Shown: positions 23,035-31,779 of the stretch, piece by piece
How the letters are laid out: each line of letters starts with the position of its first letter
Position numbering within the stretch: the first letter of the stretch is position 1
Translations under genes and position numbers: made by a program
Notes under the pieces: model-generated
What the model saw: only the letters and a program-made list of their open reading frames with translations
Told to the model about the DNA's origin: nothing
The model's database searches: none
Source: Olleya sp. YS
GTDB lineage: Bacteria > Bacteroidota > Bacteroidia > Flavobacteriales > Flavobacteriaceae
Direction: 5' to 3'
Assembly: GCF_029760915.1 (NCBI RefSeq)
Contig: NZ_CP121685.1
Span: forward strand, 2,691,001-2,755,000
DNA length: 64,000 nucleotides

Positions 23035-23075
23035 TAATAAAAAGGCATCATCATTTGATGCCTTTTTTATTATTC
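23035..23075. terminator. Bidirectional terminator between the membrane protein and hisIE
   Basis: The long stem AAAAAGGCATCA/TGATGCCTTTTT with a TCAT-type loop (core 23039-23066), flanked by T-rich ends on both strands. It serves both the plus-strand gene ending at 23019 and the his operon, whose last stop codon at 23070-23072 lies within its edge. Confidence 0.85.
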
Positions 23076-23666
23076 TCTTTCTTTTAATACAGTGACTACG
23101 TCATTAAACTTAAAACCCTTAGCTTGAAGCAACATTAGGTAGTGAAACAATAAATCGGCACTTTCATTTAAAAATAAATCGTCGTTATCGTCTTTTGCTT
23201 CAATAACCACTTCTACTGCTTCCTCTCCTACTTTTTGTGCAATTTTATTAATTCCTTTTTCAAATAGCGAAGCTACGTAAGATTTAGTCGTGTCTCCAGC
23301 TTTAACTCTAGATTCTATAGTATTTTCTAATTTTGAAATAAAACCGAAACTTTCAGAATTAGTGTCACTCCAACACGTATCGCTTCCTTTGTGGCATGTT
23401 GGTCCTTTTGGATTAACTTGTATTAATAATGTGTCATTATCGCAATCTAGTTTTATTTCTACTAAGTTTAAAACATTACCACTATCTTCACCTTTAGTCC
23501 ATAAGCGGTTTTTGGTTCTGCTGAAAAAAGTAACCAATTTGGTGTCTTTGGTTTTATTAAACGCTTCTTCATTCATATAACCCAACATCAATACATTTTT
23601 TGTTATTGCATCTTGTATGATTGCTGGTACTAATCCATCTTTGTTTTTATTGAAATCTATGTTCAT
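23070..23666 (-). CDS. hisI: Bifunctional phosphoribosyl-AMP cyclohydrolase/phosphoribosyl-ATP pyrophosphatase
   Basis: The 198-residue HisIE fusion performs steps 2 and 3 of histidine synthesis. The N-terminal HisI part (about 1-100) has the metal-binding pattern 'NEEAFNKTKDTKLVTFFSRTKNRLWTKGE' and 'DCDNDTLLIQV..GPTCHKGSDTCW'; the C-terminal HisE part has 'VGEEAVEVVIEAKDDNDDLFLNESADLLFHYLMLL'. I start at ATG 23666 (MNIDFNKNKDG). A longer reading to 23744 would translate the GC-rich inverted repeat at 23679-23740 into an artefact tail. It is last in the his operon. Confidence 0.93.
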   Translation of the reverse strand: MNIDFNKNKDGLVPAIIQDAITKNVLMLGYMNEEAFNKTKDTKLVTFFSRTKNRLWTKGEDSGNVLNLVEIKLDCDNDTLLIQVNPKGPTCHKGSDTCWSDTNSESFGFISKLENTIESRVKAGDTTKSYVASLFEKGINKIAQKVGEEAVEVVIEAKDDNDDLFLNESADLLFHYLMLLQAKGFKFNDVVTVLKERE

Positions 23667-23678
23667 TTTTTTTGTTTT

Positions 23679-23740
23679 GTCTGGTCGAGCGCAGTCGAGA
23701 CCTCTATATTTCAAATAACCTCTCGACTGCGCTCGAGAAG
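23679..23740. repeat. GC-rich REP-like inverted repeat, copy 1 (hisF-hisIE gap)
   Basis: Two inverted arms, 23679-23703 (core TCGAGCGCAGTCGAGA) and 23719-23739 (core TCTCGACTGCGCTCGA), flank a 15-base spacer and can form a strong intercistronic hairpin in the his mRNA. The left arm is identical over 25 bases to that of copy 2 at 28420-28444. Its base composition contrasts with the AT-rich surroundings. This is the kind of dispersed short palindrome seen in many Flavobacterial genomes. Confidence 0.85.
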
Positions 23741-23784
23741 ACATTAATTTTTATGAAATGCTGAAACGAATTCAACAAGACGGT

Positions 23785-24540
23785 TTATAGTCGTACTGCT
23801 ATATTATTATCTCTTAATGCTTCTTTTAAATCTTTAATTTCTATTTCTCCAAAATGAAACACACTTGCAGCCAATGCTGCGTCTGCTTTCCCTTCTTTAA
23901 AGGTATCTACAAAATGTTGCACGTTTCCTGCTCCACCTGATGCTATTATTGGAATATTTAAAGTTTCAGAAAGCATAGCTAAAGCTTCGTTTGCAAAACC
24001 TGCTTTGGTACCATCGTTATTCATGGATGTGAATAATATTTCACCTGCTCCTCTACGTTCAACCTCTTTTGCCCAATCGAATAAATTTAATTTTGTTGGA
24101 ATACTTCCACCTGCTAAATGCACCATCCATTCTCCATTAATTTGCTTAGCATCTATAGCAACGACAACACATTGGCTACCAAATTTATTAGCTAATTCAT
24201 TAACCAATTCTGGACGTTTTACTGCTGAAGAGTTTATAGAAACCTTATCTGCTCCAGATTTTAAAAGCTTATATACATCTTCAATAGACGAAATTCCTCC
24301 ACCAACTGTAAACGGAATATTAACGTGTTCTGCTACTTTTAAAACCATATCAATCATGGTTTTTCTACCTTCTAAAGTAGCCGAAATATCTAGAAATACC
24401 AGCTCGTCTGCACCTTTTACTGCGTATTGTTTTGCTAATTCTACTGGATCTCCAGCATCACGAAGGTTTACAAAATTAACACCTTTAACGGTTCTTCCGT
24501 TTTTAATGTCTAAACAGGGTATAATTCGTTTTGTAAGCAT
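23785..24540 (-). CDS. hisF: Imidazole glycerol phosphate synthase, cyclase subunit
   Basis: The 251-residue TIM barrel HisF converts PRFAR plus ammonia to imidazole glycerol phosphate and AICAR, receiving ammonia from HisH. Seen motifs are '[17 protein letters not shown]' (catalytic Asp 11), 'VGGGISS', '[11 protein letters not shown]', 'NNDGTKAGF' (second catalytic Asp region) and 'IIASGGAGN'. It begins one base after the hisA stop, in the operon order hisB-H-A-F-IE. Confidence 0.96.
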
Positions 24541-24541
24541 A

Positions 24542-25276
24542 TTATAAAAATCGTTCTAGTTCTTTTAAAGTGATTCTGTTTTCATAAATCGCCTTACCAA
24601 TGATGACACCTTCACAATTAATTTCTGAAAGCTTTTCTACATCTTCAATAGTTGTAACGCCTCCTGAAGCTATAAGTTTTATAGACTGACCAGAACTACC
24701 ATTGGTACACTCTTCAATGATGGTTTTATACAGGTCTATTGATGGTCCTTCTAACATTCCGTCTTTTGAAATGTCTGTACAAACCACATATTGAATGCCT
24801 TGTTTTTGATACGCTTTTATAAACGGAATTACCTCTAAAGTACTTTCTTCTAACCAACCACTAATGGCTATCTTTTCGTTTTTACAATCTGCTCCTAAAA
24901 TGATTTTTTGAGAGCCATATTTACTAATCCAACGCTCAAACGTATCTCTGTTTTTTACAGCAATACTTCCTCCTGTTATTTGTTTTGCTCCAGAGTTAAA
25001 TGCTGTTATAATATCGTCATCAGACTTTAAACCACCTCCAAAATCTATTTTTAAATTAGTTTTAGAAGCCACTAGCTCTAAAACTCGGTAATTTACGACA
25101 TGAGAAGCTTTCGCACCATCTAAATCGACCATATGTAAATACTCGATTCCTGCGCCTTCAAACTGTTTTGCAACCTCAAGTGGGTTTTCATTATAAATTT
25201 TAGTGGTATTGTAATCTCCTTTTGTTAAGCGTACACATTTACCGTCTATGATATCTATTGCTGGTATTATTCTCAT
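24542..25276 (-). CDS. hisA: ProFAR isomerase
   Basis: The 244-residue TIM barrel performs the ProFAR to PRFAR isomerisation in the histidine pathway. It carries '[20 protein letters not shown]' (catalytic Asp 8), '[12 protein letters not shown]', '[14 protein letters not shown]' (second catalytic Asp) and '[12 protein letters not shown]'. It is a half-barrel-repeat homologue of the adjacent hisF. It starts one base after hisH on the transcript. Confidence 0.96.
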
Positions 25277-25277
25277 G

Positions 25278-25859
25278 TTATAATTCTATAAAATTCTTTA
25301 AAATTTGTTCTCCTGCTACAGATGATTTTTCTGGATGAAACTGCACACCATAAAAATTATTTTTTTGTAAAGCTGAAGCAAATTCTACACTATAAGTAGT
25401 AGTGGCAATGCTTTCTTTACAAGCTTCTGCATAAAAACTATGTACAGAATACATAAAAGCGTCATCTTTAATATCTTTAAATAACGCTGATTTTAAATCT
25501 GTTATCGTATTCCAACCCATTTGTGGCACTTTAACACTATTGTTAAAACGCTTGACATCTACATTAAAAATACCTAATCCTTTGGTGCTACCTTCTTCTG
25601 AAGAGTTACACATCAATTGCATCCCTAAACAAATCCCTAAAACGGGTTGTTTTAAAGCTGGAATTAAAGTGTCTAAACCGCTTTCTTTTAGCATTTGCAT
25701 TGCAGAACTTGCCTCACCAACTCCTGGAAAAATTACTTTGTCTGCTGCTTTAATTTCATCTGGATTGTTAGATAAAATGGCATCGTAACCTAAGCGTTTA
25801 AAGGCAAATTGAATACTTTTAATATTACCTGCTCCGTAATTTATTATTACTAACTTCAT
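25278..25859 (-). CDS. hisH: Imidazole glycerol phosphate synthase, glutaminase subunit
   Basis: The 193-residue class I glutamine amidotransferase supplies ammonia to HisF. The oxyanion strand '[10 protein letters not shown]' opens the protein, the nucleophile Cys sits in '[10 protein letters not shown]' (about 78), and the His/Glu dyad in 'VQFHPEKSS' near 170. The start overlaps the hisB stop by one base, indicating translational coupling. Confidence 0.96.
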
Positions 25860-26998
25860 TACAACATACCTTTAGTTGATGGCAAAAACATTTTATTAGC
25901 ATCACGTTTTACAGCCATTTTCATTGCTTTTGCAAATGCTTTAAAAATGCCTTCAATTTTATGGTGCTCATTAGTGCCTTCAGCTTTAATATTTAAGTTG
26001 CATTTTGCACCATCTGTAAACGATTTAAACAAATGGAAAAACATTTCGGTTGGCATATCACCTATTTTTTCGCGTTTAAAATCGGCTTGCCATTCTAACC
26101 AGTTTCTACCTCCAAAATCAACTGCTACTTGTGCTAAGCAGTCGTCCATTGGTAAACAAAAACCGTAACGCTCGATACCTAATTTATTACCTAAAGCTTT
26201 ATTAAATAATTCGCCCAAAGCAATCATAGTATCTTCAATAGTGTGATGCTCATCAACTTCTAAATCGCCATCAACTTTTATGGTTAAATCCATTGCACCA
26301 TGACGACCAATTTGGTCTAACATGTGGTCGAAAAACTTTAAACCAGTATCAATATTATTTTTACCAGAACCATCAAGGTTTAATTTAATGTAAATCTTGG
26401 TTTCGTTGGTATTACGCGTGATTTCTTCAACGCGATCATTTAATTTTAAAAACTCGTAGATGGCTTTCCAATCTGTACTTGTTAATGCGATAGAATCTAA
26501 AATGGCTTGTTTTGAACTTTCAATTTCATCTGCTCCTAATTCTGGATCTTCAGATAAAAATATACCTTTTGCTCCAAGATTTTTGGCTAATTCCATATCT
26601 GTAATTCGGTCACCTAAAACAAATGAGTTTTCTAAATCGTATTCAGTTGTATCAAAATATTTAGTAAGCAAGCCTGTTCGTGGCTTACGAGTTTCGGCAT
26701 TTTCATGCGGAAACGTTTTGTCGATACACACTTCAGAAAAAACAACACCTTCTTTTTCGAATGCTGATATGACTTTATTTTGAGCAGGCCAAAAGGTATC
26801 TTCAGGAAAAGCATCTGTTCCTAAACCATCTTGATTGGTTACCATAACTAGCTCAAAATCTAGCTCTGAAGCTATCTTAGCCATGTATTGAAATACTTTT
26901 GGGTAGAACTCTAATTTTTCTAAACTATCTAGTTGATAATCTACAGGTGGTTCTAATACCAAAGTTCCGTCCCTGTCTATGAATAGTACTTTTTTCAT
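25859..26998 (-). CDS. hisB: Bifunctional histidinol-phosphatase/imidazoleglycerol-phosphate dehydratase
   Basis: The 379-residue HisB fusion has an N-terminal HAD phosphatase (about 1-165) with '[13 protein letters not shown]' and a zinc-type loop, and a C-terminal IGP dehydratase (about 190-379) with the metal-binding '[13 protein letters not shown]', 'DEHHTIEDT' and '[19 protein letters not shown]'. It carries out two non-consecutive steps of histidine synthesis. ATG 26998 ([11 protein letters not shown]) is preferred to 27016, which adds an atypical MINKLI and reaches the neighbouring repeat. The upstream gap to hisC carries a decayed GIY-YIG cassette. Confidence 0.95.
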
Positions 26999-27015
26999 GA
27001 TTAACTTGTTAATCA

Positions 27016-27036
27016 ATCCTGAACATGATTCAGGAT
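27016..27036. repeat. Short inverted repeat bordering the GIY-YIG cassette, hisB side
   Basis: ATCCTGAA (27016-27023), five-base loop, TTCAGGAT (27029-27036): a perfect 8-base stem. A near-identical repeat is at 27355-27373, so the pair brackets the GIY-YIG pseudogene. Confidence 0.65.
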
Positions 27037-27354: not shown

Positions 27355-27373
27355 TCCTGAATCAAGTTCAGGA
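27355..27373. repeat. Short inverted repeat bordering the GIY-YIG cassette, hisC side
   Basis: TCCTGAA (27355-27361), five-base loop, TTCAGGA (27367-27373). It matches the repeat at 27016-27036. The hisC stop codon TGA (27368-27370) lies inside it. Confidence 0.65.
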
Positions 27374-28411
27374 TTTCGAAATTAATTGAAGGTATTCAAT
27401 TAATCTCTCATTTTCTTTCACAGTTCCAACAGTAATTCGAATACAATTCTTAACCTGAGTATTCCTGTTTCTAATAATTACTTTTTTATCGATTAAATAT
27501 TGGTAGGTTTTATCTGCATTATCAACTTCAACTAATAAAAAGTTAGCATCTGTAGGATATATTTTTTTAACGATATCTAGCTGATTTAAAGCTTCTTTAA
27601 GCTTGTTTTTTTCTGAAAGAATTATCTCAATATTTTTAGACACTTCAGTTTGATTGTTTAAACTCTCTAAAACCGCTTTTTGGTTTAAAGTGCTTACGTT
27701 ATATGGCGGTTTTACACGATTGTAAAGTGCAATAATAGCTTCGCTAGCATATGCAACGCCTACTCTAACTCCTGCTAATCCCCAAGCTTTACTAAAGGTT
27801 TGACTTACAATTAGATTGTTGTATTTATTTATGTTTTTAATGAATGATGCTTGCGAGCTAAAATCGATATAAGCTTCGTCTACAATCACGATACCATTAA
27901 AATTCTCAAGAATGTATTCAATATCTTCTGTATTTATAGTATTTCCTGTTGGATTGTTTGGTGAGCAAATAAAAATGATTTTTACATCTTCAACATCTAA
28001 ATACGGTTGTAATTGATTTAAATTAATTTGAAAATCGTTAATCAAAGGTTGCTTAATCACCTCAATATTATTGATATTTGCTGACACATCGTACATTCCG
28101 TAGGTTGGTGTAAAGGTTAAAACCTTATCTTTTCCAGGTTCGCAAAAAATACGAAACGCTAAATCGATAACTTCATCACTTCCGTTACCAATGAAAATTT
28201 GATTAGTTTCAACAGATTTAATAACTGAAAGTTTTTCCTTAATTTTTGTTTGTTGTGGATCTGGATAACGGTTTAAATTTCCAAACGGATTTTCGTTAGC
28301 ATCTAAAAACACATCTGCTGTACCTTTAAACTCATCTCTTGCAGAAGAATATGGTTTTAAAGCTTTAATGTTAGCTCTAACTAGGTCGTTTATGTTAAAT
28401 GTTATGCTCAT
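27368..28411 (-). CDS. hisC: Histidinol-phosphate aminotransferase
   Basis: The 347-residue fold-type I PLP enzyme converts imidazole acetol phosphate and glutamate to histidinol phosphate. It shows 'DANENPFGNLNRYPDPQQ', 'IFIGNGSDEVIDL', 'CSPNNPTGN', 'VIVDEAYIDF' and the PLP lysine in 'SQTFSKAWGLAGVRVG'. The last codons run into a dispersed short repeat that supplies the TGA stop, so the C-terminus ends LQLISKS. The gap to hisD contains a GC-rich inverted repeat (28420-28490). Confidence 0.95.
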   Translation of the reverse strand: MSITFNINDLVRANIKALKPYSSARDEFKGTADVFLDANENPFGNLNRYPDPQQTKIKEKLSVIKSVETNQIFIGNGSDEVIDLAFRIFCEPGKDKVLTFTPTYGMYDVSANINNIEVIKQPLINDFQINLNQLQPYLDVEDVKIIFICSPNNPTGNTINTEDIEYILENFNGIVIVDEAYIDFSSQASFIKNINKYNNLIVSQTFSKAWGLAGVRVGVAYASEAIIALYNRVKPPYNVSTLNQKAVLESLNNQTEVSKNIEIILSEKNKLKEALNQLDIVKKIYPTDANFLLVEVDNADKTYQYLIDKKVIIRNRNTQVKNCIRITVGTVKENERLIEYLQLISKS

Positions 28412-28496: not shown

Positions 28497-29780
28497 TTAT
28501 TTTAAATCCTTTAAACGTATTGAAACCGCATTTTTATGCGCTTGTAAACCTTCGGCTTCAGCCATTAACTCTATGGAATTACCAATATTTTGAATACCTT
28601 CTTTAGTGATTTTTTGAAACGTAATGGCTTTTGTAAAACTGTCTAAATTTACTCCAGAATACGCTTTACTAAAACCATTAGTAGGTAAGGTGTGATTAGT
28701 TCCAGATGCATAATCTCCTGCGCTTTCTGGTGTATAGTTTCCTATAAATACAGATCCTGCGTTAATTATATTATTGACAAAAAAATCATTGTCATTAGTA
28801 CATAATATTAAGTGTTCAGGAGCATAGTCATTAATTATGTCTAATGCATCATTCGCGTCTTCCATAATAATAGCTTTAGAATTTTCAAGTGCTTGTTTAG
28901 CTATGTCTTTTCTTGGTAAAACCGCTAACTGTTTGTCTATTTCTTTTTGTACTTGCTCTATAAAACCTTGAGAATCTGACACCAAAATGACTTGACTATC
29001 TGCACCATGTTCTGCTTGGCTTAGCAAATCTGAAGCCACGTAACTTGCATTAGCACTATTATCTGCAGCTATTAGCAATTCGCTTGGTCCAGCTGGCATA
29101 TCTATTGCTACTCCGTATTTAGTTGCTAATTGTTTCGCCACTGTCACAAACTGGTTTCCTGGACCAAAAATCTTGTAGACTTGTGGTATAGTGTCTGTTC
29201 CAAACGTTAATCCAGCTATTGCTTGAATACCTCCAACTTTAATTATTTTAGTGACTCCACAAAGCTCTGCTGCATATAAAATTTCGTTAGCTATGTTACC
29301 TTCTTTGTTGGGAGGCGAACATAATACAATCTCCTTACATCCTGCAATTTGAGCAGGAACAGCCAACATTAAAACGGTTGAAAATAATGGTGCGCTACCA
29401 GCAGGAATATAAATCCCGACTTTTTGAATGGCTCTTTTTTCTTGCCAGCAAGTGACACCAACTGTAGTTTCAATGCTGATTGTTTCCGTTTTTTGTGCGT
29501 TGTGAAATGTCTCAATATTACGCTTTGCTAGTTGAATTGCTTGTTTTAAATCAGATGAAATTTTAGAACTCGCTAGCTCAACTTCTTTAGCGGACACTGT
29601 ATTTGAAGCTAATTCGACTCCATCAAACAGTTGCGTGTATTTTGTTATAGCTAGATCACCATTACGTTGCACATCCTCAAAGATTTGAGTTACTGTAGTT
29701 TCAATATCATCTACAGTCTGTGTTGGTCGTTTTAAAAGGGTTGACCAAGTGGATTGGTTTGGGTTTATAAATGTTTTCAT
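28497..29780 (-). CDS. hisD: Histidinol dehydrogenase
   Basis: The 427-residue zinc enzyme oxidises histidinol to histidine in two NAD-linked steps. Recognisable blocks are 'GIYIPAGSAPLFSTVLMLAVPAQIAGC', 'GPGNQFVTVAKQ', 'DMPAGPSELLIAADNSANASYVASDLLSQAEHGADSQ' (zinc/active-site Glu-His) and 'SAGDYASGTNHTLPT' (His). Full length for the family. It is second in the operon, 47 bases after hisG. Confidence 0.96.
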   Translation of the reverse strand: MKTFINPNQSTWSTLLKRPTQTVDDIETTVTQIFEDVQRNGDLAITKYTQLFDGVELASNTVSAKEVELASSKISSDLKQAIQLAKRNIETFHNAQKTETISIETTVGVTCWQEKRAIQKVGIYIPAGSAPLFSTVLMLAVPAQIAGCKEIVLCSPPNKEGNIANEILYAAELCGVTKIIKVGGIQAIAGLTFGTDTIPQVYKIFGPGNQFVTVAKQLATKYGVAIDMPAGPSELLIAADNSANASYVASDLLSQAEHGADSQVILVSDSQGFIEQVQKEIDKQLAVLPRKDIAKQALENSKAIIMEDANDALDIINDYAPEHLILCTNDNDFFVNNIINAGSVFIGNYTPESAGDYASGTNHTLPTNGFSKAYSGVNLDSFTKAITFQKITKEGIQNIGNSIELMAEAEGLQAHKNAVSIRLKDLK

Positions 29781-29827: not shown

Positions 29828-30685
29828 TTAAATCACCATTTTTTCTATCGGACAAACTAAAATACCTTGTGCTCCATTAGCTTTTAATTCGTCAATAACT
29901 TCCCAAAATTGGTTTTTATTTATTACGGAGTGTACACTACTCCAACCTGCTTCTGCTAATGGTAAAACCGTTGGGCTTTTCATTCCTGGCAAAATATTGA
30001 TGATATCTTTTAGCTTATCGTTTGGTGCATTTAGTAACACGTATTTTGAGTTTTGTCCTTTTAAAACAGATTGTATTCTAAATTGTATTTTTTCAAGCAA
30101 TTTTTGATTTTCAGTAGAAATTTTAGGAGATACTGCTAATACTGCTTCCGATTTTAAAATAACTTCAACTTCTTTTAAACCGTTTTTAAATAATGTACTT
30201 CCGCTAGACACAATATCTACAATAGCATCTGCTAACCCAATATTTGGAGCAATTTCTACAGAACCATTAATGATGTGTAACTTGGCAGATACGTTGTTTT
30301 TACTTAAAAACTGATTAACTGTATTTGGGTACGATGTAGCAATACGTTTTCCTTCTAAATCTTTAACCGAATTGTATTTTGCTCCTTTAGGTACTGCAAC
30401 AGACACTTTGCAACTAGAAAATCCTAATGTTTCTGCAATTGTAATGTCATTACCTTTTTCGATTAATACATTTTCTCCGATGATGGCAATGTCTACCACA
30501 CCATCCTTTAGATATTGTGGAATATCTCCATTACGTAAATAGAAAATTTCTAAAGGAAAATTTCTGGCTGATGCTTTAAGTTGGTCTTTTCCATTGTCTA
30601 TAGAAATACCAATGTCTTTAAGGATTTTCATGGAATCCTCATTTAATCGTCCTGATTTTTGAACTGCAATTTTTAATTTACTCAT
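29828..30685 (-). CDS. hisG: ATP phosphoribosyltransferase, long form
   Basis: The 285-residue HisG catalyses the first committed step of histidine synthesis. The N-terminal catalytic part has 'AVQKSGRLNEDSMKILKD' and the PRPP-binding 'DAIVDIVSSGSTLFKNGL'. The final ~75 residues, including 'KLKDIINILPGMKSPTVLPL', form the ACT-like HisG_C domain that allows feedback inhibition by histidine. So this enzyme is probably controlled both allosterically and by the attenuator upstream (30744-30859). Confidence 0.96.
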   Translation of the reverse strand: MSKLKIAVQKSGRLNEDSMKILKDIGISIDNGKDQLKASARNFPLEIFYLRNGDIPQYLKDGVVDIAIIGENVLIEKGNDITIAETLGFSSCKVSVAVPKGAKYNSVKDLEGKRIATSYPNTVNQFLSKNNVSAKLHIINGSVEIAPNIGLADAIVDIVSSGSTLFKNGLKEVEVILKSEAVLAVSPKISTENQKLLEKIQFRIQSVLKGQNSKYVLLNAPNDKLKDIINILPGMKSPTVLPLAEAGWSSVHSVINKNQFWEVIDELKANGAQGILVCPIEKMVI

Positions 30686-30743
30686 TTTAATTTTTTTTTA
30701 ATTGGGTTTGAGTAAATCTTTAATTAGAAAGTTGTTAAAAACA

Positions 30744-30775
30744 AAAAACCGTTTGATTTACTCAAACGGTTTTTA
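30744..30775 (-). terminator. his operon attenuator (terminator hairpin)
   Basis: The stem CCGTTTGA with TCAAACGG (plus 30749-30756 and 30762-30769), extended by A/T pairs, runs into a T-tract on the minus strand. It lies between the His-rich leader peptide and hisG. Its 5' arm on the RNA (GTTTGAGT) can alternatively pair with ACTCAAGC at the end of the leader (plus 30810-30817), the antiterminator. Confidence 0.85.
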
Positions 30776-30802
30776 AATATGTTGATTTTATACAATACAT
30801 CT

Positions 30803-30859
30803 TCAGTTCGCTTGAGTGCAAATATGAAAATGATGATGATGTGATTGAATAAAATTCAT
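30803..30859 (-). CDS. hisL: his operon leader peptide
   Basis: The minus strand from ATG 30859 encodes MNFIQSHHHHFHICTQAN and stops at TGA 30803-30805. Five of its 18 residues are His, four in a row as CAT codons, which is the hallmark of a transcriptional attenuation leader. When charged tRNA-His is scarce, the ribosome would stall on the CAT run, leaving ACTCAAGC (30810-30817) free to pair with the terminator's 5' arm and let transcription continue. When His is plentiful, the ribosome reaches the stop, covers that segment, and the terminator forms. This is deduced from sequence. Confidence 0.88.
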   Translation of the reverse strand: MNFIQSHHHHFHICTQAN

Positions 30860-30876: not shown

Positions 30877-30909
30877 CAAATATTGTGAATTTAAAATGTA
30901 AAAAGCAAA
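30877..30909 (-). promoter_or_regulatory. his operon promoter
   Basis: On the minus strand TTTG (30906-30909), a 21-base spacer and AATATTTG (30877-30884, one mismatch from TAnnTTTG) precede the leader peptide start at 30859 by about 18 bases. This fits a Bacteroidota housekeeping promoter. Confidence 0.5.
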
Positions 30910-30963: not shown

Positions 30964-31779
30964 TTATTGATTTCCTAAAATAATTGGCATTCCGCTATCA
31001 CCTGAGCCTATAACAATAACTTTACTATTATTAGATTCTGATAATTTTACTGTTGCTTCGATACCTTTATCTTGTAAAATTTTATCTGTTAGTGAAGCAC
31101 TTAAAATACGATTTGCATCTGCTTTACCTTGTGCTTCAATAATTACTTTTTCTGCTTCTTTTGCAGCTGTCACTAATCTAAACTCATACTCTAAAGACTC
31201 TTGTTCTTGACGTAATTTACGCTCGATAGCTTCTTTAATTGTATTAGGTAAAGTAACATCGCGTACTAACACCTCGTTTAATTGTACGTATTGCTTTTCT
31301 AAAATCTTTTTTGTTTCAGCAAAAATTTCATCTTGAATTGCGTCACGCTTACTAGAATATAGTTGTTCTGGTGTGTAACGACCAACTACACTACGTGCAG
31401 CACTACGTATGGCAGGCTGTATGACACGTTGCAAGTAGTTTTGACCTAGTGATTGGTGAAGATTTCCTAACTCGCTGTAAACAGGCTCGTACCAAGCAGA
31501 AGCATCAATTTGTATTTCTAGTCCGTTAGACGATAATACTTTCATTTTTTCAAATAATTCTTGTTGACGTACTTCATAAATATAGACTTTATTCCATGGT
31601 GCAACAATATGAAACCCTTCACCCATTGGAGGCTCATCGGTTACAACACCGTCTCCAAAGGTTTCAAAAAGCACTCCAGCTTCTCCAGAGTCAATTGTTA
31701 CTGCTGATTTAGCAATTAAAATAATTCCGATAATAACCGCTATGATTATTGGGAATGCAATTTTTGGTAATTTTTCCAT
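30964..31779 (-). CDS. Prohibitin/SPFH-family membrane protein
   Basis: The 271-residue protein has one N-terminal membrane helix (IAFPIIIAVIIGIILIAKSA) followed by an SPFH/band-7 domain (about 30-215: 'IDSGEAGVLFETFGDGV', 'GEGFHIVAPWNKVYIYEVRQQE', 'RSVVGRYTPEQLYSSKRDAI') and a coiled, Ala/Glu-rich end. Prohibitin-like proteins form large membrane-associated rings and scaffold membrane domains or proteases. It is last in a likely operon with fabG, a secreted protein and a VWA protein. Confidence 0.88.
   Translation of the reverse strand: MEKLPKIAFPIIIAVIIGIILIAKSAVTIDSGEAGVLFETFGDGVVTDEPPMGEGFHIVAPWNKVYIYEVRQQELFEKMKVLSSNGLEIQIDASAWYEPVYSELGNLHQSLGQNYLQRVIQPAIRSAARSVVGRYTPEQLYSSKRDAIQDEIFAETKKILEKQYVQLNEVLVRDVTLPNTIKEAIERKLRQEQESLEYEFRLVTAAKEAEKVIIEAQGKADANRILSASLTDKILQDKGIEATVKLSESNNSKVIVIGSGDSGMPIILGNQ

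Follow-up and report, generated by a model that had tools for sequence, protein, structure and literature searches.

The DNA upstream of the histidine biosynthesis operon of Olleya sp. YS most probably encodes a ribosome-mediated transcription attenuator (probability roughly 0.87, judged from sequence and comparison), in which a strand made downstream of the terminator, D, is a third partner of the terminator 5′ arm, T5. The order of parts is promoter, 18-codon leader with the antiterminator strand inside the ORF, intrinsic terminator and hisGDCBHAF(IE). As an attenuator it is of a known kind and well supported by comparison; strand D, as far as our searches reach, is undescribed in the open-access literature. 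An earlier interpretation of the same DNA (the sequence-only reading) had proposed a stall-dependent antiterminator. All of its anatomical parts were found to be present and conserved, with a spacing that fits such a device, and two parts that it did not name, a helper helix (P1) and strand D, were recognized in addition.

The his locus

The analyzed DNA, called the window here, was a 64-kb stretch of the 3.0-Mb single-contig chromosome of Olleya sp. YS (family Flavobacteriaceae). The nearest hisG among the named relatives was that of Olleya aquimaris (96% identical). Eight his genes, assigned with NCBIfam models, lie 3′ of the leader and make up the operon for the amino acid that the leader would sense:

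29828 to 30685, minus strand: hisG, the first structural gene, with start ATGAGTAAATTA (TIGR00070, 189.3 bits)
28497 to 29780, minus strand: hisD (TIGR00069)
27368 to 28411, minus strand: hisC (TIGR01141)
25859 to 27016, minus strand: hisB, bifunctional (NF003937)
25278 to 25859, minus strand: hisH (TIGR01855)
24542 to 25276, minus strand: hisA (TIGR00007)
23785 to 24540, minus strand: hisF (TIGR00735)
23070 to 23744, minus strand: hisIE (NF002747)

The leader ORF and its promoter

The elements from the promoter to the last His codon of the leader, hisL, were placed as follows:

30906 to 30909, minus strand: −33 promoter element TTTG, a box conserved in family loci
30877 to 30884, minus strand: −7 promoter element AATATTTG (NANNTTTG), a box conserved in family loci
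30803 to 30859, minus strand: hisL leader ORF, MNFIQSHHHHFHICTQAN plus stop (30805-30803), from the sequence and comparison
30830 to 30841, minus strand: codons 7-10, four consecutive CAT His codons, read from the sequence and part of the conserved His-rich leader
30824 to 30826, minus strand: fifth CAT His codon, codon 12, read from the sequence

The ORF beginning at ATG 30859, for which five CAT codons had been claimed, has 18 codons and encodes MNFIQSHHHHFHICTQAN, with four CAT codons in a row, one Phe codon and one more CAT. Five CAT codons among 18 are what the short His-rich leader of a ribosome-mediated attenuator would be expected to carry. Folding of the 143-nt leader gave z = −4.56.

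Conserved His runs upstream of hisG in related genomes, which the sequence-only reading had suggested looking for, were sought in the 80 closest named hisG loci out of 562 confirmed candidates. One locus (L063) was left out because just 51 nt of its upstream sequence was at hand, and all 79 remaining loci contained a short His-rich ORF, e.g., M[NT]FIQLHHHHFHTCTQAS. Class-wide, at least three His codons within eight codons were present in 124 of 138 upstream regions, compared with 39 of 2760 shuffled regions. The 138 regions came from 45 families, include one genome twice (L137 and L172), overlap with the named hisG set, and comprise 70 of the 72 hisG-bearing relatives (99 searched; G075, in which hisG is split, and G089 were omitted) and 68 of the 134 hisG-bearing genomes of the class (296 searched). 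At least one His-rich leader was found in 38 of the 45 sampled families, which would place the classical histidine attenuation of enteric bacteria in these families of a class whose phylum lacks Shine-Dalgarno sequences. The 14 regions below the mark include two from 0.6 Mb genomes (L147 and L150), one from a 1.2 Mb genome (L208), and one in which the locus is cut by a contig end (L103); in the first three, hisG is kept in a reduced genome with no His-rich leader within 400 nt upstream. Because shuffling does not preserve codon repeats, and because triple His-codon patterns occurred at 659 sites in the same genome compared with 251 for a backward control, the true chance rate would be somewhat above the shuffle rate, and still well under the observed rate. 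Outside the class, a His-rich ORF was seen in 13 of 20 loci picked from the matches listed, some of these being long ORFs with scattered His codons, so that a His-rich leader beyond the class is only suggested.

A TTTG-like box lies 17–24 nt 5′ of NANNTTTG in 109 of 132 family loci (28 of 2640 shuffles), and 102 of these 109 have a spacer of exactly 21; NANNTTTG itself was found in 114 of the 132 (136 of 2640 shuffles), in 95 of them 17–19 nt 5′ of the leader ATG. The box names, −33 and −7, and the promoter consensus follow the Bacteroidota literature. Since the −7 box ends 17 nt before the leader ATG, the 5′ UTR of hisL is probably about 10 nt. No Shine-Dalgarno-like sequence was visible before hisL; according to one report, the phylum is naturally without such sequences (PMC6847099).

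The terminator and the antiterminator strand

The strands that would compete in the nascent leader RNA are:

30809 to 30817, minus strand: A, antiterminator strand of sequence ACTCAAGCG within the Thr-Gln-Ala codons of the leader ORF, from its pairing with the terminator core
30762 to 30774, minus strand: T5, terminator 5′ arm, from the terminator search and alignment
30744 to 30756, minus strand: T3, terminator 3′ arm, then a T tract, from the terminator search and alignment

The terminator that had been placed before hisG was recovered at 30774-30744, with 13 bp in its stem, 5 nt in its loop and a T tail, as the sole terminator-like site in 401 bases (shuffle mean 0.1). A predicted intrinsic terminator sits between the leader and the first structural gene, as in an attenuator. 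When 47 distinct sequences were aligned, 100% of the T5:T3 cells were paired, with 18 double-change cells and a covariation of 0.158.

The eight-base pairing with one G-U that the sequence-only reading had drawn between ACTCAAGC (30817-30810) and GTTTGAGT (30767-30760) holds, and since the next pair, G30809-C30768, forms too, the A:T5 helix has nine pairs. Its placing of ACTCAAGC "just after" the His codons is right in that the strand is downstream of them; the strand is, however, inside the leader ORF, in codons Thr15-Gln16-Ala17. Pairing of A and of T3 with the terminator 5′ arm is predicted to be mutually exclusive, as attenuation would demand. A 7-base A core matching the terminator core CG[TC][TC]TGA at 7/7 positions, with G-U allowed, was found in 123 of 146 loci, compared with 713 of 14600 shuffles, and a looser test (duplex energy against 100 dinucleotide shuffles) was passed by 45 of 60 family loci and 34 of 66 others. 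Measured from base 1 of the first His codon, the core begins 23–29 nt downstream (23 or 26 nt in 114 of the 123) and ends 3 nt before the leader stop in 106 of the 123. Given the size of a ribosome footprint, A should remain exposed while a ribosome sits on the His codons and be covered by one that has reached the stop.

The perfect 7-base match was absent in 23 of the 146 loci, eight of them in the window's own genus. In those eight, the Ala codon is GCC or GCT and, by our reading, six of the seven pairs are kept and the eight-base pairing is intact. Several distant relatives (L175, L176, L195, L205 and L213, for example) have a different terminator of the GGCTTACC...GGTAAGCC type, and in several such relatives the strand that matches it, GGTAAGC or GGTAGGC downstream of the His codons, includes the leader's stop codon.

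The choice of synonymous codons in the leader follows the terminator. Where the terminator core has a C facing the third base of the Gln codon, the leader Gln is CAG in 10 of 10 loci from six families, and with TT-core terminators it is CAA in 99 of 118 loci; a CT-core terminator accompanies CAG in L121 (Fisher p ~9e-8, relatedness ignored; 17 loci with no Gln past the last His excluded). Two loci, L102 and L106, retain the 7-base RNA pairing although TAA, a stop, replaces the CAA Gln codon inside A. Together with the fixed position of A, these observations argue for selection on the RNA strand as well as on the peptide, making the stretch a clear case of one sequence serving both as codons and as an RNA strand.

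The helper helix P1

Folding placed a second helix around A, formed by leader codons 2-8 and the stretch after the leader stop:

30838 to 30855, minus strand: P1 5′ strand, within leader codons 2-8, from folding and a shuffle test
30785 to 30801, minus strand: P1 3′ strand, directly after the leader stop, from folding and a shuffle test

P1 reached p ≤ 0.05 against shuffles in 105 of 132 family loci (median −10.9 kcal/mol, compared with −3.7 for shuffles) and was not supported outside the family, where 19 of 65 loci passed. Formed together, P1 and A:T5 would cross as a pseudoknot. We read P1 as the state without a ribosome, in which A would be hidden.

Proposed order of events

The strands and their potential to pair are properties of the sequence; from them we infer a histidine response and a set of ribosome states, as follows. 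A Bacteroidota-type promoter would start the RNA some 10 nt 5′ of hisL. With little charged tRNA-His available, the ribosome would stall on the four CAT codons and cover the P1 5′ strand, A would stay free to pair with T5, and RNA polymerase would continue into hisG. When histidine is plentiful, the ribosome would reach the stop codon and cover A, T5:T3 would form and transcription would end. With no ribosome, P1 would keep A in its loop and the terminator would again form. Once the polymerase had passed, D could pair with T5 and the loop.

Strand D downstream of the terminator

The strand between the terminator and hisG and its partner were placed as follows:

30755 to 30767, minus strand: T5L, GTTTGAGTAAATC, part of the 5′ arm plus the loop and the first two bases of the 3′ arm; partner of D, from pairing tests
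30706 to 30718, minus strand: D, GATTTACTCAAAC, complementary to T5L and to the hisG start (ATTTACTCA with TGAGTAAAT), from pairing, covariation and swaps

D is the exact complement of T5L, over about 13 bp. The shuffle test for D was passed by 68 of 79 loci (78 relatives and the window; L072 was left out since another hairpin had been chosen there as terminator), and in 70 of the 79 the locus's own D region paired better than the mean of loci with other loops. Among distinct loci with a CG[TC][TC]TGA core, D was significant in 116 of 140 (11 of the 12 readable ones outside the family) and not significant in 24, after six loci lacking a readable 3′ arm had been omitted. When non-family loci were split by eye, D passed in 16 of 17 with that core and in just 5 of 49 without it (L143, L183, L190, L195 and L204). 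No D-like strand was detected in the E. coli his leader (p = 0.55) or in the trp leader of the same genome (p = 0.57). At that locus (G000:C1, L222), which lacks D, trpE is preceded by a Trp leader peptide, MNATLNHTWWWNSRKSTFVN, and by a terminator-like hairpin.

In the alignment of 47 distinct sequences, 95.2% of the T5L:D cells were paired, with 51 double-change cells and a covariation of 0.277; none of 500 shuffles reached these values, and versions slid along the alignment gave at most 0.060. T5L:D thus covaries more than the terminator itself (0.277 compared with 0.158) in these D-selected loci. The alignment consisted of the window and 47 named loci, all of them D-positive and with at most 22 nt between D and the ATG; because its loci were selected for D, it is silent on the frequency of D and still bears on covariation. 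In swaps designed as a check on relatedness, each locus being matched with a close relative that has a different loop (112 of 115 loci could be paired), the native combination won 38 of 56, lost 4 and tied 14. D is accordingly a conserved, covarying helix strand after the terminator, where classical models have no role for one. When the RNA from T5 to hisG was folded for the 116 loci, the median probability was 0.57 for T5L:D and 0.43 for T5:T3, values so nearly equal that folding energy alone leaves the two undecided.

From the 3′ end of D to the hisG ATG there are 12–25 nt in 87 of the 116 loci (mode 16) and 29–66 nt in the other 29. Small hairpin repeats (e.g., CCCGCTTTCTCGGG) are found between D and the ATG in L009, L020, L024, L028, L042, L053 and others, with D some 33–48 nt away.

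Strand D and the hisG start

Since D is made only after the terminator has been passed, it cannot influence the termination of its own RNA. The likeliest single role for it is a switch on hisG translation after read-through, which we hold tentatively, at about one chance in three. In RNA from read-through under plentiful histidine, T5 would be in the hairpin and D would fold on the hisG start; with T5 out of the hairpin, T5L would capture D and free the start, and leaky read-through would go untranslated. D would then be a compact means to suppress such leakage, and, if D is indeed an anti-start strand for hisG, the same arm would decide both transcription and translation.

D is complementary to the hisG start, ATTTACTCA pairing with TGAGTAAAT. 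Pairing of D with the start was ranked against its pairing with windows along the 5′-most 600 nt of that hisG. Of the 98 loci that had D, an ATG and a retrieved hisG, 59 had the start among the top 5% of windows. By group, the counts were 38 of 39 for a GAGTAAAT loop with AGT as second codon, 19 of 24 for AGT with other loops (together 57 of the 63 AGT loci outside the GAGA-loop group), and 2 of 6 for other loops with a non-AGT second codon. In the GAGA-loop group, start pairing with D was seen in none of 25 loci with an AGT second codon and none of 4 more; ACTCAT there matches ATGAGT in 20 of the 33 loci with that start, a weak match. These counts, for and against, bear on a possible dual transcription and translation attenuator; covariation of the D:start helix was within the shuffle range in the alignment of loci selected for D. 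The D:start shuffle test was passed by 59 of 136 loci and failed by 77, and matched swaps between D and the hisG start gave 11 for, 0 against and 4 ties (n = 15); four loci lacking a start codon at the match were omitted from the shuffle, swap and fold tests of D with the start. The start ATGAGT was found in 97 of 106 loci with D and in 18 of 30 without it (Fisher p 1.3e-4, relatedness ignored). The AGT codon alone is no evidence for control of the start, since it is usual without D too (15 of 17 loci with Ser2), and as D is tied to T5L, its pairing with the start could be a consequence of T5L alone. Some terminator loops copy the start of their own hisG: L012, L011 (GAAC), L016 (GAAT), L164 (GTACA) and L163 (GTAT). 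Three loci (L120, L123 and L126), however, retain D:T5L with a start that does not pair.

In silico, pairing of the AUG at the window locus fell from 0.63 to 0.31 once T5L was joined. Mean AUG pairing fell from 0.66 to 0.42 in 42 loci with a GAGTAAAT loop, from 0.75 to 0.54 in 55 other ATGAGT loci, and from 0.51 to 0.39 in 18 loci with another start; this smaller drop at non-ATGAGT starts indicates that the fold effect is partly non-specific. Flavobacterium johnsoniae genes are reported to be less structured between −20 and +20 of the start (PMC6847099), so that an effect of a helix that ends close to −16 or on the AUG is plausible.

A fuller picture is that A, T3 and D all contest the terminator 5′ arm and loop, with D as the hisG anti-start, in a two-lock histidine switch that is old in Flavobacteriales-type loci and has been tuned by co-evolution among three parts, the terminator loop, D and the opening codons of hisG. 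This picture is speculative and has the odds against it.

Other roles for strand D

Close behind control of the hisG start comes a role in mRNA structure or stability, unlikely when taken singly and still to be reckoned with: D would be a structural element of the read-through mRNA that takes T5 from A, blocks refolding of the terminator and stabilizes the message, leaving the start unaffected. It would account for the conservation of D:T5L also in loci that lack D:start pairing, and for the tolerance of insertions between D and the ATG in the 29 loci with a distant D. It would, however, make needless the position of D in the remaining 87 loci, with its mode of 16 nt before the ATG.

Trans-acting attenuator RNAs are known from trp in Sinorhizobium, and the leader RNA released here by termination would carry T5L, a 13-nt complement of D, with which its terminator loop could bind D on hisG mRNA. 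We consider action of this kind improbable, because every hisG message from this promoter carries the same complement in cis, which should win.

T5L and D also form an inverted repeat about 50 bp apart, as a DNA operator for a repressor would, rather than an RNA helix. Across 69 distinct T5L/D combinations there were 719 Watson-Crick, 90 G-U, 15 A-C and 67 other cells; an operator would have no strand bias, and the excess of G-U over A-C points to the sense RNA rather than to DNA or to an antisense transcript, with the limit that the scoring used to place D favors G-U somewhat. The operator reading was set aside on this bias as very improbable.

Scarcely credible is a chance origin, in which the His-rich ORF means nothing and the hairpin is the ordinary terminator of the upstream gene (minus strand, co-directional, ending at 30964): common as triple His patterns are in this genome, the leader, promoter and pairing are conserved in the named relatives and in most sampled families, and a chance His run was set aside on the 79 of 79 relatives and the class-wide counts against shuffles.

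Comparison with known systems

No Rfam 15 model matched the window at its gathering score. A permissive search (E ≤ 10) of 401 bases gave 15 matches, all under their gathering scores and none of them a his leader; the match of lowest E reached 27.7 bits compared with 51.5 needed. The leader works like the Rfam his leader family (presumably RF00514) and is not a member of it. A histidine T-box was rejected, as the T-box model had no match in the window or in the 401-base search. As a candidate isoleucine/valine leader, a small ORF before ilvD was inspected and set aside, with no clear attenuator seen by eye.

In the E. coli his attenuator, the terminator arm has an alternative pairing. The E. 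coli and Salmonella attenuators share with this leader a His-rich leader ORF (hisL of E. coli K-12 is MTRVQFKHHHHHHHPD) and a strong hairpin before hisG. The leader described here differs in having only one antiterminator strand, contained in the leader ORF, a single helper helix (P1) and a strand past the terminator (D), with no Shine-Dalgarno-like sequence visible ahead of hisL. Leader-peptide attenuators have reportedly been predicted in Bacteroidetes/Chlorobi, in work ascribed to Vitreschak (2004) and Lopatovskaya (2010).

The sequence-only reading had doubted how well his attenuation is documented in Bacteroidota. That doubt is lifted in part by a 2021 transcriptome of Flavobacterium psychrophilum, which reports clues of leader-peptide attenuation upstream of amino-acid operons, as well as a hisG 5′ element that is structured, transcribed, conserved in other genera of the Flavobacteriaceae and without an Rfam match (PMC9723704). 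The doubt stands in part, as the section concerned works out no mechanism: that section gives no leader peptide sequence, antiterminator or D, and SI Appendix D9/Table S7 may describe some of these parts (PMC9723704). Most likely, we infer, that element and the one described here are the same. Beyond that report, no worked his attenuator in this group and no D-like strand was found in the open-access literature, which misses most subscription papers.

His attenuators of Firmicutes, in the available part of a 2022 account, likewise combine a leader with 3-5 His codons, a terminator and an antiterminator; they belong to a different lineage, and that part mentions no post-terminator strand (PMC9413887). 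The vmlR leader of Bacillus subtilis shares stalling of a ribosome in a leader ORF and both transcription and translation attenuation of one gene, and differs in sensing an antibiotic rather than an amino acid (PMC9226507). Of two further sources, one describes leader-like small ORFs in Bacteroides (PMC7366714) and the other treats leader genes broadly (PMC4833913).

Further features of the operon

Between hisC and hisB (27331-27122, minus strand) lies a short ORF with an early stop, which we take to carry a GIY-YIG-like motif and which is flanked by the palindromes CCTGAACTTGATTCAGG and CCTGAATCATGTTCAGG; it looks like a small mobile or repeat-associated insertion in the his operon. The first 26 residues of the HisIE ORF (MSSRAQSRGYLKYRGLDCARPDKTKK, 23744-23667, minus strand) fall mostly outside the family match, which begins at residue 24; this N-terminal stretch is perhaps a repeat read in frame, the true start being near 23666.
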